Shown piece after piece: positions 12,406-34,746 of a DNA stretch of 34,746 nucleotides; the first letter of the stretch is position 1; each line of letters begins with the position of its first letter. The translations under genes were made by a program, and so were the position numbers. The notes under the pieces are model-generated. The model had not been told where the DNA came from, searched no databases, and was given only the letters and a program-made list of their open reading frames with translations. Source of the stretch: Chitinophagaceae bacterium (GTDB taxonomy: Bacteria; Bacteroidota; Bacteroidia; Chitinophagales; Chitinophagaceae); assembly GCA_947483415.1 (NCBI GenBank), contig CANKLV010000004.1, positions 1 through 34,746 of the forward strand. The letters run 5' to 3'.

Positions 12406-12427
12406 TCAAACACCAAACAAAAAACCT

Positions 12428-13624
12428 TTAACTAACCTTGCCCGAATAAACTTCTAATGCTTTTTCAAGACAGTCGATTGCTTTATGAATGGCATTAACA
12501 TTCAACACATAAGCCAATCGAACTTCATTTTTACCCAAGCCTGCGGTAGCATAAAAGCCAGTTGCCGGAGCGAGCATTATTGTTGCATTGTTATAGCTGA
12601 AAGATTCTAAAAGCCATTGACAAAAAACATCGCAATCATCAATTGGCAATCTTGCCATGGCATAAAAAGCACCACCTGGGTTTGGACAAAATACTCCTGG
12701 GATTTTATTTAGTCTTTCAACAATGGTATCTCTTCTTAGTTTGTATTCTGCTTTGGTAATGTCAAAATAATCATCTGGTAAATCAACCGCAGCTTCACCA
12801 AGAAGTTGTGCGTAGTATGGTGGACTTAATCTTGCTTGTGCAAATTTCATTGCAGCATTAAGTACATCTTTGTTTTTGGTTACCAATGCGCCGATTCTTC
12901 CACCACAAGCACTATATCTTTTACTGATGGTGTCCATCAAGATTACATTATTCTCGGCACCTTTTAAATGCATCGCACTGGTATGTGTTGATTCGTAGCA
13001 AAACTCTCTGTAAGCCTCATCTGCAAAAAGAAATAAGTTGTGTTTGATTACAAGCGCTTCAAGAATTTTCATTTCCGCTTCGCTATACAAATAGCCAGTT
13101 GGATTATTGGGATTGCAAATTACAATTGCTTTGGTTTTCGAAGTAATGGCTTTTTCTATTTCTTCCATTTTAGGCAAATCAAATCCTGTTTCAATTTTAC
13201 TGCCAATTGGAACAACCTTTACGCCAGCCTGAACAGCAAAACCGTTGTAATTTGCGTAGAATGGTTCGGGAATAATTACTTCATCACCAGCATCCAGGCA
13301 AGCCATAAATCCAAATAAAATAGCTTCACTACCTCCGGTAGTTACAATAATTTCTGAAGCATCAACATGGATATTATTTTTAGCATAATATTGAACCAGT
13401 TTTTTTCTATAGCTTTCATTTCCTGCACTATGGCTATATTCTAAAACAGAGAAATCTGCGTTTCGAACAGCATCTAAACAAGATTTTGGTGTTTCAATGT
13501 CTGGTTGTCCGATGTTTAAATGAAAAACATTAATACCTTTTTTCTTCGCAGCTTCTGCAAATGGAACCAATTTTCTAATTGGAGATGCGGGCATCATTTC
13601 CCCACGTTGACTGATTTTTAACAT
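12428..13624 (-). CDS. Pyridoxal phosphate-dependent aminotransferase (aspartate aminotransferase-like, class I/II)
   Basis: FHLNIGQPDIETP, VICNPNNPTGYLYS, FADEAYREFCYE, ISKRYSACGGRIGALV (PLP-lysine region). Confidence 0.92.
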   Translation of the reverse strand: MLKISQRGEMMPASPIRKLVPFAEAAKKKGINVFHLNIGQPDIETPKSCLDAVRNADFSVLEYSHSAGNESYRKKLVQYYAKNNIHVDASEIIVTTGGSEAILFGFMACLDAGDEVIIPEPFYANYNGFAVQAGVKVVPIGSKIETGFDLPKMEEIEKAITSKTKAIVICNPNNPTGYLYSEAEMKILEALVIKHNLFLFADEAYREFCYESTHTSAMHLKGAENNVILMDTISKRYSACGGRIGALVTKNKDVLNAAMKFAQARLSPPYYAQLLGEAAVDLPDDYFDITKAEYKLRRDTIVERLNKIPGVFCPNPGGAFYAMARLPIDDCDVFCQWLLESFSYNNATIMLAPATGFYATAGLGKNEVRLAYVLNVNAIHKAIDCLEKALEVYSGKVS

Positions 13625-19358: not shown

Positions 19359-20447
19359 ATGGAACAAAAATTTTTTTATCATCAGTTGTTTGCTTTTGTG
19401 CAATCGATTTTTATTCAGATGGGATGCTCAGAAATAGATGCAATAACTGCTTCAAAATCCTTACTTAGTGCCGATTTAAGTGGTGTAGACAGTCATGGCA
19501 TTGCTCGTTTGGTGGGTTATGTTCGATTGTGGGAAGTTGGGCGGATTAATAGCAAACCCGAAATAAAAATAATTCATGAAACACCAAGTACAGGTGTTGT
19601 AGATGGAGGTGCTGGATTGGGTTTGGTCGTAGCTCCGTGGGCAATGAATATTGCTATTGAAAAAGCCAGGCAAGTGGGCAGTGGATGGATTAGCGTACAA
19701 AACAGTAATCATTTTGGAATAGCCGGACAACATGCAATGATGGCATTGCCTCATGATATGATTGGTATAGCGATGACAAATGCTTCTGCGTTAGTGTCGC
19801 CTACTTTTTCTAAAGAAAGGATGTTGGGCACAAATCCAATTGCAGTAGCTATTCCTGCAGGTGAACAACCTCCATTTGTGGCTGATTTTGCAACAACTAC
19901 TGCAGCCAATGGAAAACTTGAAATATCACAAAGAAAAAATATTGCGGTTCCAAGTGGTTGGGTACAAGATGAGAATGGAATTGAATCAAATGATGCGCAT
20001 GCATTGAAGCAGGGTGGGGCGTTATTGCCACTTGGTGGCGATCGTGAGCATAGTAGCCATAAAGGATTTATGTTGGGTTCAATTGTAGATATTTTTTCAG
20101 GAGTATTAAGTGGTGCAAATTTTGGTCCATGGGTACCGCCTTTTCCAGCTTATGTACCAATGCCTGAAAATATGCCAGGAAAAGGAATTGGTCATTTTTT
20201 TGGGGCAATGAGAATCGATGCATTTCGAACAGCAGAATCATTTAAAAAAGATATGGATTTATGGATTAGTAGATTTAGAGAAGCGGTACCAATAGATGCT
20301 AGAAATCCTGTTGTAATCCCCGGTGATCCAGAAAGAATAATGGAGCAAGAGCGCATTCATAATGGAATTCCAATTCCAGAAGTAATTCAAAATGATTTAA
20401 AAGAACTGGGTGCAAAATTTAATGTTCCGTTTGATTTAGTAAAGTAA
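19359..20447 (+). CDS. Ldh family (malate/L-lactate dehydrogenase-type) oxidoreductase
   Basis: LLSADLSGVDSHGIARLVGYVRLWEVGRIN, GWISVQNSNHFGIAGQHAMMAL, MLGTNPIAVAIPAGEQPPFVADFATT, HKGFMLGSIVDIFSGVLSGANFG. Confidence 0.92.
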   Translation: MEQKFFYHQLFAFVQSIFIQMGCSEIDAITASKSLLSADLSGVDSHGIARLVGYVRLWEVGRINSKPEIKIIHETPSTGVVDGGAGLGLVVAPWAMNIAIEKARQVGSGWISVQNSNHFGIAGQHAMMALPHDMIGIAMTNASALVSPTFSKERMLGTNPIAVAIPAGEQPPFVADFATTTAANGKLEISQRKNIAVPSGWVQDENGIESNDAHALKQGGALLPLGGDREHSSHKGFMLGSIVDIFSGVLSGANFGPWVPPFPAYVPMPENMPGKGIGHFFGAMRIDAFRTAESFKKDMDLWISRFREAVPIDARNPVVIPGDPERIMEQERIHNGIPIPEVIQNDLKELGAKFNVPFDLVK

Positions 20448-20453
20448 AAAGTA

Positions 20454-20640
20454 AAAAAGTATGGATGACTTGTACTTTTAAAAATCCAATGTAATCTGAG
20501 CATAACTCAAAAACTTTCAAAAAAACTTTCAAAATCATTTTTACAAACGCAATAAAATCAACGCGTTATCGTTTTAAAGATGGTTTTTCATAGGATATTG
20601 GATTAATACGGGCTGCGATTTCTATCACGGCCCTTTTTTT
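20454..20640 (+). ncRNA. Candidate small RNA unit, copy 1 of 3 (98-nt core 20543-20640 ending in an intrinsic terminator-like hairpin)
   Basis: Core differs by one base from each of the other two copies, with no indels; 3' end GGGCTG-C-GAT-TTCT-ATC-A-CGGCCC-T7. Confidence 0.55.
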
Positions 20641-20687
20641 ATTTTGGGAAGAGAGAAGTGAAAAGAGAGAAGTGAAAAGTCAAAATT

Positions 20688-20862
20688 AAAAAAGTATAGA
20701 TGACTTTTGGTTAAAGAATTCAACGTTTTCTGAGCAAAACACAAAAACTTTCAAAATAATTTTTACAAACGCAATAAAATCAACACGTTATCGTTTTAAA
20801 GATGGTTTTTCATAGGATATTGGATTAATACGGGCTGCGATTTCTATCACGGCCCTTTTTTT
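20688..20862 (+). ncRNA. Candidate small RNA unit, copy 2 of 3 (core 20765-20862)
   Basis: Same 98-nt core with a single G-to-A change (ACGCG to ACACG); same hairpin and T7. Confidence 0.55.
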
Positions 20863-20882
20863 GTTTTCGAAAGTCAAAAGTC

Positions 20883-21056
20883 AAAAAGTATGGATGACTT
20901 GTAGTTTTAAAAACTCAATGTTATCTGAGCTAACACAAATACTTTCAAATTAATTTTCACAAACGCAATAAAATCAACGCGTTATCGTTTTAAAGATGGT
21001 TTTTCATAGGATATTGGATTAATACGGGCTGCGATTTCTATCATGGCCCTTTTTTT
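20883..21056 (+). ncRNA. Candidate small RNA unit, copy 3 of 3 (core 20959-21056)
   Basis: Same 98-nt core with a single C-to-T change in the 3' hairpin arm (CGGCCC to TGGCCC), which keeps a G-U pair; T7 follows. Confidence 0.55.
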
Positions 21057-21110: not shown

Positions 21111-22160
21111 TTATATAATCAACATTGCATCTCCATAACTAAAAAAGCGATACTTATCTTTTATTGCTTTTTGATATGCATCCATCATTAAATCATAACC
21201 TGCAAAAGCACATGCCATTATCATCAAACTCGATTTTGGCAAATGAAAATTACTTACCAATGAATCGGCAACATTGAAATTATATGGTGGATGGATAAAA
21301 TGATTTGTCCAACCCTCTGATGGTTTTAATAATTTTTGTGCAGTATAAGAGGTTTCCATCGCGCGCATTGTAGTTGTTCCAATTGAACAAATTCTGTTTT
21401 TGCATTCTTTTGCTTTGTTTACAATGGCACATGCAGTTGCATCTACTCTATAATATTCTGCATCCATTTTATGCTTGCTCAAATCTTCTACTTCAATTTG
21501 GCGGAAAGTGCCTAATCCAGTGTGTAAGGTAACTTCAGCAAAACGAATTCCTTGTATTTCCAAACGCTTAATTAGTTCTTTACTAAAATGCAAACCAGCA
21601 GTAGGTGCAGCAACGGCTCCTTCATATTTTGCATAAACCGTTTGATATCTTTCTTTATCTTCTTCTTCTGGTTTTCTTTTGATGTATTTAGGCAATGGCG
21701 TTTCTCCCATCAATTCAAGCATCTGACGAAACTCTTCTTCTGTTCCATCCCAAAGGAATCTTATTGTTCTTCCGCGGCTGGTTGTATTATCGATTACTTC
21801 TGCAACCAATTCATCATTTTCGCCAAAATACAATTTATTTCCAACCCTGATTTTACGCGCAGGATCCACAATTACATCCCACAATTTATTGGTTTTGTTA
21901 AGTTCTCTTAATAAAAAAACTTCAATTTTTGCCCCTGTCTTTTCTTTTCTTCCATACATTCTTGCAGGGAAAACCTTGGTATTGTTTACTACAAACACAT
22001 CCTTATCATCATAATATTCCATGATGTCGGAAAAGTTACGATCTTCAATATGACCGGTTTTGCGATGAATTACCATTAAGCGACTATCTTCTCTTCTTTT
22101 TGTTGGATTTTGTGCAATTAAATTTAACGGGAGGTCGAAACGGAACTGTGATAACTTCAT
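21111..22160 (-). CDS. queA: S-adenosylmethionine:tRNA ribosyltransferase-isomerase QueA
   Basis: [94 protein letters not shown]. Confidence 0.95.
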
Positions 22161-26228: not shown

Positions 26229-26654
26229 TTAAAAATCTCTGTTGTAGCCACCGCTACCACCGCTGCGATTACCGCCACCACCGTAACCACCTCCACGACT
26301 TCCGCCGCCGCCACCGTAACCACCACCGCCACGACTTCCGCCGCCGCCGCTTCCGCCACGATTTCCACCGAATCCACCACCGCCACCTGGACGCTTCTTG
26401 TATTCGCCTTCTTGACGTGGTTGTGATTCATTAACAATAAGCTTACGATTCATAACTTCTGTTTCGTTTAAAGCTGCGATTGCTGCTTTTGCTGCTTCAT
26501 CGTCTTCCATTTCAACAAAACCAAAGCCCTTACTGCGACCGTTCATTTTGTCTTTTAAAATTTTACCGCTTGTAACGGTTCCGAATTCTGTAAAAAGATT
26601 CGTTAAATCTTCGTCAGTCATTGTCCAACTGAGATTTCCAACATAAATGTTCAT
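26229..26654 (-). CDS. RRM-domain RNA-binding protein with Gly/Arg-rich C-terminal tail
   Basis: MNIYVGNLSWTMTDEDLTNLFTEFGTV (RNP2), RSKGFGFVEM (RNP1), then GGGGGFGGNRGGSGGGGSRGGGGYGGGGGSRGG. Confidence 0.93.
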   Translation of the reverse strand: MNIYVGNLSWTMTDEDLTNLFTEFGTVTSGKILKDKMNGRSKGFGFVEMEDDEAAKAAIAALNETEVMNRKLIVNESQPRQEGEYKKRPGGGGGFGGNRGGSGGGGSRGGGGYGGGGGSRGGGYGGGGNRSGGSGGYNRDF

Positions 26655-34235: not shown

Positions 34236-34746
34236 CTAATCATCCTTTCTGAACCCAATTCGATTTCTTTTTGGAATCGGTTTCGGCTCCAACATTTTTT
34301 TTAACATGTTAAAAATCACCGCAATTTCTTTGTCATGCATTCCTATTTTTTGTTCAATTTGTTCGATTTTCAAAAGCATGTCTTTGTTATGTAAAGCCAA
34401 TTCTCGAATAGCCGTGAACACCCTTACAATTTGAATATTAGCTTGAATGGCTTTTTCGCTATTTAATATACATGCCAGCATAACAGCACCATGTTCGGTA
34501 AAGGCGTAGGGTAATTGATGCGAAAAAATTAAATTCTTGAGGTGGTCGCAATTTGCGACCACCTCCGCTTTTTCTTCTTGGGTTAATTGAAATAAAAAGT
34601 CTTCCGGGAACCTGGATAAATTTCTTTTCACTTGTTCATTTAATCTTTTTGTGGTTACACCATAAATTGAAGCTAAATCTCTATCAATCATAACTTTTTT
34701 ACCACGGACTCTTATTATACAATCAAGGATGTCATTTTCTGAAATC
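34236..34746 (-). CDS. ORF6N domain-containing (phage antirepressor/KilA-N-type) DNA-binding protein, 5'-truncated by window edge
   Basis: Frame continues to the window edge (SENDILDCIIRVRGKKVMIDRDLASIYGVTTKRLNEQVKRNLSRFPEDFLFQLTQEE), then YAFTEHGAVMLACILNSEKAIQANIQIVRVFTAIREL. Confidence 0.9.
   Translation of the reverse strand, partial: ISENDILDCIIRVRGKKVMIDRDLASIYGVTTKRLNEQVKRNLSRFPEDFLFQLTQEEKAEVVANCDHLKNLIFSHQLPYAFTEHGAVMLACILNSEKAIQANIQIVRVFTAIRELALHNKDMLLKIEQIEQKIGMHDKEIAVIFNMLKKMLEPKPIPKRNRIGFRKDD

Follow-up and report, generated by a model that had tools for sequence, protein, structure and literature searches.

What is the element that occurs three times in direct repeat between an Ldh-family gene and queA in the genome of a Chitinophagaceae bacterium? 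The window, by which we mean the whole stretch of 34,746 nucleotides that was analyzed, belongs to contig C4 of a 1.9-Mb MAG that is 94% complete. A first-pass annotation of the letters had proposed a multicopy array of small RNAs on the + strand, kept by selection, and homologues from other genomes bear this proposal out through an invariant seed found at dispersed loci, promoter boxes at a fixed spacing, and covariation in the terminator. The features of the array and its neighbors are as follows.

19359-20447, + strand: Ldh_2 (malate/L-lactate dehydrogenase family) gene (Pfam PF02615, E 2.7e-112)
20448-20542, + strand: diverged upstream part of unit 1, with the islands GTATGGATGACTT, CTGAGC, and ACTTTCAAA and a ~12-nt insertion
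20550-20576, + strand: predicted promoter of copy 1 (CAATAAA 20550-20556, CGTTTTA 20570-20576; 12 nt from CGTT to the first G of the seed)
20582-20640, + strand: predicted sRNA copy 1 (model R1, 78.4 bits; alignment of 107 copies; fold), made of a 23-nt seed (20582-20604), a linker, a terminator stem-loop (20610-20633), and a T-tract (20634-20640)
20676-20764, + strand: diverged upstream equivalent in unit 2
20772-20798, + strand: predicted promoter of copy 2 (CAATAAA 20772-20778, CGTTTTA 20792-20798; class box statistics and sequence)
20804-20862, + strand: predicted sRNA copy 2 (seed 20804-20826), with an RNA identical to that of copy 1 (R1, 78.4 bits)
20870-20958, + strand: diverged upstream equivalent in unit 3
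20966-20992, + strand: predicted promoter of copy 3 (CAATAAA 20966-20972, CGTTTTA 20986-20992; class box statistics and sequence)
20998-21056, + strand: predicted sRNA copy 3 (seed 20998-21020), with a C-to-T change in the terminator stem (R1, 79.5 bits)
21111-22160, - strand: queA, convergent with the array (Pfam PF02547, E 1.9e-134)

Direct comparison of the copies and the Pfam matches of the two flanking genes agreed with the annotation on the layout of the array. The three cores (20543-20640, 20765-20862, and 20959-21056, all on the + strand) are each 98 nt long without indels, and copies 2 and 3 each depart from copy 1 at one base, a G/A difference and a C/T difference in the terminator stem, respectively. 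The consensus of a 90-nt block matched the window exactly three times, versus none in 100 shuffles. The upstream parts have diverged as had been described, with 10 to 16 substitutions per 82 to 88 aligned positions in addition to the ~12-nt insertion in copy 1, against one or two per 98 in the cores (Fisher p of 1.5e-5, 0.003, and 0.001), and their islands are common only to the arrays of close relatives. Both flanks recur: the Ldh_2 gene borders many sRNA loci of relatives, and queA is syntenic with the sRNA in many of them.

The distribution of the element was followed with the 23-mer GGTTTTTCATAGGATATTGGATT, allowing up to two mismatches. Of the 299 genomes of the order, 61 contained it, each of them from the Chitinophagaceae, where it occurs in 61 of 85 genomes over 29 genera, and in none of the 214 genomes of 21 other families; most of the matches among those listed had no mismatch, and a reversed control pattern gave no match in the 299 genomes. 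With one repeat as BLAST query, 58 of 99 relatives (all of the same genus as sampled) proved to hold its 3′ ~60 nt, usually as several dispersed copies. A covariance model of the 59-nt RNA (R1), run against 396 genomes of the phylum, had strong matches only in Chitinophagaceae; of the weak matches elsewhere, three (L112-L114) were read as gyrA 3′-end terminators and two (L133 and L134) lacked the seed. The annotation had recognized no named RNA family, and the Rfam search likewise gave nothing at gathering level, with only chance matches far below the family cut-offs at E up to 10. No match to the sRNA was found in plasmid and GenBank phage collections, and a literature search by sequence string returned unrelated papers only. 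By these searches, the predicted RNA belongs to an undescribed, unnamed multicopy sRNA family whose hosts are restricted to Chitinophagaceae.

The array in the window is one predicted locus of a seven-member family in this MAG, the other four members lying at C1:2496-2556, C168:1183-1243, C39:4049-4106 (- strand), and C88:4051-4107 (- strand). The last two represent a second subfamily (AGUUUUCAUAGGGUACGGAUUAA), which was found by the covariance model and keeps the core UUUUCAUAGG common to both subfamilies; these subfamily-B genes, marked by AGTTTTCATAGGGTACGGATTAAAAACGGG, have their own promoters and terminators and were likewise found in at least eight further Chitinophagaceae genomes. An unnamed, family-wide sRNA family with two subfamilies is thereby added to a Bacteroidota group without an sRNA in the literature searched. 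In MAGs L007, L009, L039, and L042, tandem sRNA copies were seen at or near contig ends; assemblies probably break there, so that copy numbers in MAGs are likely underestimates.

The homologues also revealed the anatomy of the RNA, in which an intrinsic terminator with covarying pairs comes after an invariant 5′ seed (GGUUUUUCAUAGGAUAUUGGAUU). When 107 distinct copies from many genera were aligned, the 23 nt running from GG to ATT proved almost completely conserved; conservation drops in the linker and stem and climbs again in the T-tract. Within the seed, 21 of 23 positions are without any variation and the remaining two differ in one or two copies, a figure biased towards seed conservation by the many loci that were collected through seed similarity, but loci gathered by BLAST, for which the seed was not required, gave the same profile. 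The seed is thus kept where flanks and terminator vary, and core and flank do not decay equally among homologues, an outcome in favor of the annotation. When loci were compared upstream, they had nothing in common but a promoter box, whose distance from the seed is fixed, and for this reason the predicted 5′ end is most likely the GG of the seed (GGTTTTTCATAGG, GGTTTTTCAT, and GGUUUUUCAU), which would give an RNA of 59 nt in the window. The annotation was right about the length of the conserved core, but not about its boundary as a transcript unit: the 98 nt most likely comprise ~39 nt of promoter and a 59-nt RNA gene rather than a single 98-nt transcript. Its expectation of a ~100-180 nt transcript has to be given up as well, the homologue anatomy pointing to ~59 nt with a start at GGTTTTTCATAGG. 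Each repeat is, as far as its letters can tell, a complete small gene with a promoter, a ~59-nt RNA, and an intrinsic terminator, and we infer that this RNA is transcribed. With exact predicted 5′ and 3′ ends in hand, UUGGAUUAAUACGGGC can serve as a probe for the RNA in a single northern blot, and any contacts with partners would be expected to center on UUUUCAUAGGAUAUUGG.

That the core ends in an intrinsic terminator had been proposed from the window, where the predicted fold has six base pairs, a C·A mismatch, three further base pairs, a UUCU loop, and a T7 tract. Fold, T7, and homologues agree on this point. Seven of the eight pairs of the stem show compensatory change, 95% of cells are paired, and the covariation score was reached by none of 500 shuffles, with slid control structures scoring far lower. 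A conserved terminator with compensatory changes and a U-tract is a mark of trans-acting sRNAs that end in an intrinsic terminator. The seed is mostly unpaired in the fold, though a weak 4-bp hairpin is possible, and hence it would not be fully single-stranded.

A second mark of such sRNAs, an own promoter at a fixed distance from the 5′ end, was also found. The box begins exactly 12 nt 5′ of the seed and is, depending on the copy, either TAnnTT or an ECF-like CGTTwTA. TAnnTT stands at -12 in 34 of 35 copies, 25 of which have TTG 22-23 nt further upstream, and this consensus agrees with the published housekeeping promoter of Bacteroidota, TAnnTTTG with a -33 TTTG (PMC7366714). In the CGTTwTA class, to which all three copies of the window belong, CGTT stands at -12 in 54 of 55 copies, most with an AxTAA element upstream; this box looks like the promoter of an alternative (ECF-type) sigma factor. 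A variant, TGCAAC N16-19 followed by a GTCTTAT/CATCTAT-like element, was observed 5′ of the sRNA in L058, L089:1239, L092, and L097, and its letters suggest a promoter closer still to the classical ECF type than CGTTwTA.

A promoter, a short leader, and a terminator could also make up a cis-acting leader or attenuator of the gene downstream, since short leader-terminator units look alike. A downstream gene could be seen at 98 loci, the gene calls being simple open reading frames; it lies on the same strand in ~20 but is convergent with the sRNA in ~78, which argues that the copies are not leaders. In many loci between gldN and uvrC the terminator sits within a few bases of the uvrC stop, the tandem copies of the window precede the 3′ end of queA, and no anti-terminator pairing was seen, leaving the leader reading with almost no credit. 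The copy number, the tandem copies in several relatives, and the copies in phage contigs might instead betray a non-autonomous MITE/REP-like element that multiplies and only looks like a gene. Such an element would hardly hold the same syntenic positions in many genera, as the sRNA does at gldN|uvrC, Ldh_2|queA, and herA|recQ (recQ being assigned by its helicase domain and inspection), nor do the other traits fit: the loci are unrelated upstream save for promoter boxes at a fixed spacing, the terminator has changed by covariation and not by drift, neither terminal repeats nor target duplications were seen, and the repeat was absent from the other families sampled. Convergent neighbors, recurrent sites, and terminator covariation disfavor the two readings together, and we hold a mobile repeat to be very improbable.

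Taken as a small RNA gene family, the element has its closest known counterpart, at the level of anatomy, in FopS/GibS of Bacteroides, the FopS seed letters being given only in figures. FopS of Bacteroides thetaiotaomicron comprises 14 dispersed, short paralogues with canonical Bacteroidota promoters, a 5′ seed, and a terminator, has a related copy in a phage, and shares its genome with the RRM-1 protein RbpB; FopS and GibS repress susC translation (PMC11697453, PMC7366714). The Chitinophagaceae RNA likewise has multicopy paralogues with a 5′ seed and a terminal Rho-independent terminator, and would be a second case, beside FopS, of many genes feeding one seed. Differences are nevertheless evident, as FopS is reported to be conserved within Bacteroidaceae (PMC11697453), whereas the present RNA was detected in Chitinophagaceae alone and matches nothing in Rfam, some of its copies have ECF-like promoters, it forms tandem arrays and a second seed subfamily, and its targets and RRM binding are candidates read from sequence alone. 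GibS of B. thetaiotaomicron resembles it in a 5′ seed, which pairs at start codons, an intrinsic terminator, and a regulated non-housekeeping promoter, PM2 (PMC7366714, PMC11697453). Described in Bacteroides, GibS differs in being single copy and in having two seeds (its own R1 and R2), and the pairing with a target is only predicted for the present RNA. Further afield, LhrC1-7 of Listeria and Qrr of Vibrio come from other phyla and use other folds, with Qrr using Hfq, and we know of no sequence relation between them and the present RNA. Their likeness lies in several near-identical sibling sRNAs per genome that form one shared pool (PMC11697453).

On these grounds, we think it fairly probable that the loci encode, redundantly and under different control, a single trans-acting antisense RNA working in the FopS/GibS mode. 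Its 23-base 5′ end is nearly unchanging throughout one large family and several phages, and the RNA therefore probably controls many bacterial genes. The same RNA would have many source loci per genome, read by different sigma factors through housekeeping-type TAnnTTTG and ECF-like CGTTwTA promoters, so that several signals could raise the level of one shared seed. Acting in trans, this un- or weakly structured 5′ seed (GGUUUUUCAUAGGAUAUUGGAUU), with the terminator hairpin directly after it, would base-pair with mRNAs. The surroundings of translation starts are the most plausible sites, since the common core UUUUCAUAGG is the antisense of CCUAUGAAAA, in which a lysine codon follows the start codon. 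The letters suggest pairing at the starts of exported-protein genes, and the outcome may be mostly repression.

Two tests addressed this pairing over 573 gene starts of two genomes. Seed duplex energies, set against internal windows and shuffled seeds, showed no enrichment at starts (the subfamily-A seed ranked 30/120 and 18/120 in the shuffled-seed test of start windows), and in-register complementarity to start codons was not enriched over permuted flanks either; no target class can thus be claimed. Some of the top-scoring starts encode secreted MKK-type proteins, as is expected of any seed with UUUUCAU. In genomes rich in copies, the perfect 13-nt complement TCCTATGAAAAAC hardly occurs outside the sRNA genes.

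A protein partner is suggested by one further gene of the window.

26229-26654, - strand: RRM_1 RNA-binding protein with a Gly-rich tail (Pfam PF00076, E 3.8e-22)

This is the single RRM_1 match in the genome. The gene lies 5 kb away from the array, with the ribosomal-protein genes on its other side, and its product is a candidate counterpart of RbpB that could take part as RbpB does with FopS in Bacteroides.

The same protein opens another reading: the seed would serve mainly to bind the RRM protein, or some other RNA-binding protein, and the many copies would titrate it, as RsmY and CsrB do with CsrA. A seed that hardly varies over 23 nt, two GGA motifs (AGGAU and UUGGAU) in the conserved part, as in RsmY/RsmZ/CsrB, a small hairpin that may form around an invariant UAGGAUAU loop, and the nearby location of the only RRM protein detected would all suit a decoy, as would the lack of bulk enrichment in start-codon pairing and the binding of RbpB to the 5′ part of FopS (PMC11697453). 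A decoy for CsrA itself was rejected, since CsrA (PF02599) had no match in this 94% complete genome while control genomes were positive. Unlike RsmY/RsmZ/CsrB, each RNA has one site and not an array of repeated ones, and subfamily B alters much of the loop and the hairpin yet keeps UUUUCAUAGG. RRM proteins, moreover, usually recognize far fewer than 20 bases. We therefore regard a protein decoy as unlikely.

Joined to other terminators, the seed also turns up in phage contigs from at least three lineages. The exact 23-mer occurs in a 236-kb viral contig (L206, IMGVR_UViG_3300037418_003161) with baseplate wedge and NrdA genes, and three viral copies were delimited as genes.

L206, 5815-5872, + strand: predicted sRNA gene with a promoter-like TTTG...TCTTTG, the seed, and a terminator (R1, 71 bits)
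L207 (59-kb phage contig), 4945-5002, - strand: full variant gene of subfamily A with a variant seed end (18-mer search)
L216 (13-kb viral contig), 12409-12468, + strand: subfamily-B copy

In four other contigs from the 18-mer search (L208, L209:5706-5768, L213, and L214:10110-10170), a 21-nt seed is exact and joined to an unrelated terminator; three of these contigs also show a promoter-like TAGCTTCG at about -12. The viral 18-mer matches in L210, L211, L212, and L215 had neither promoter nor terminator and were set aside as chance.

In the phage contigs everything but the seed has been exchanged, so that these copies amount to a natural experiment, and one that singles out the seed as the functional part of the gene. 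It is conceivable, and we advance it tentatively, that viruses from several phage lineages, one of them a 236-kb jumbo phage, possess sRNA genes of their own, in which the seed of the host's global sRNA is combined with phage promoters and unrelated terminators, and that they would use these genes to steer the post-transcriptional network of the host; if so, one seed would be common to a bacterial family and its viruses. For L208, L209, L213, and L214 there is an alternative that we also take as possible without leaning on it, namely that the identical block is an attP for integration into a host sRNA gene and no phage sRNA at all. Phages often integrate in small RNA genes, identity is confined to GGTTTTTCATAGGATATTGGA, and the block precedes a tyrosine integrase gene by ~0.3-1 kb, as seen in L209 and L214. 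Against this, the hybrid GGTTTTTCATAGGATATTGGACC was present in none of 399 Chitinophagaceae host genomes, each copy has its own terminator hairpin, with the promoter-like element in three of four, and the copies in the 236-kb phage and L207 are full sRNA genes, no integrase being seen in the DNA examined.

Elsewhere in the window, an open reading frame at 34236-34691 (- strand) has by eye an ORF6N/KilA-N-like start (MIDRDLASIYGVTTKRLNEQVKRN), which we take to be typical of phage or defence-island genes.
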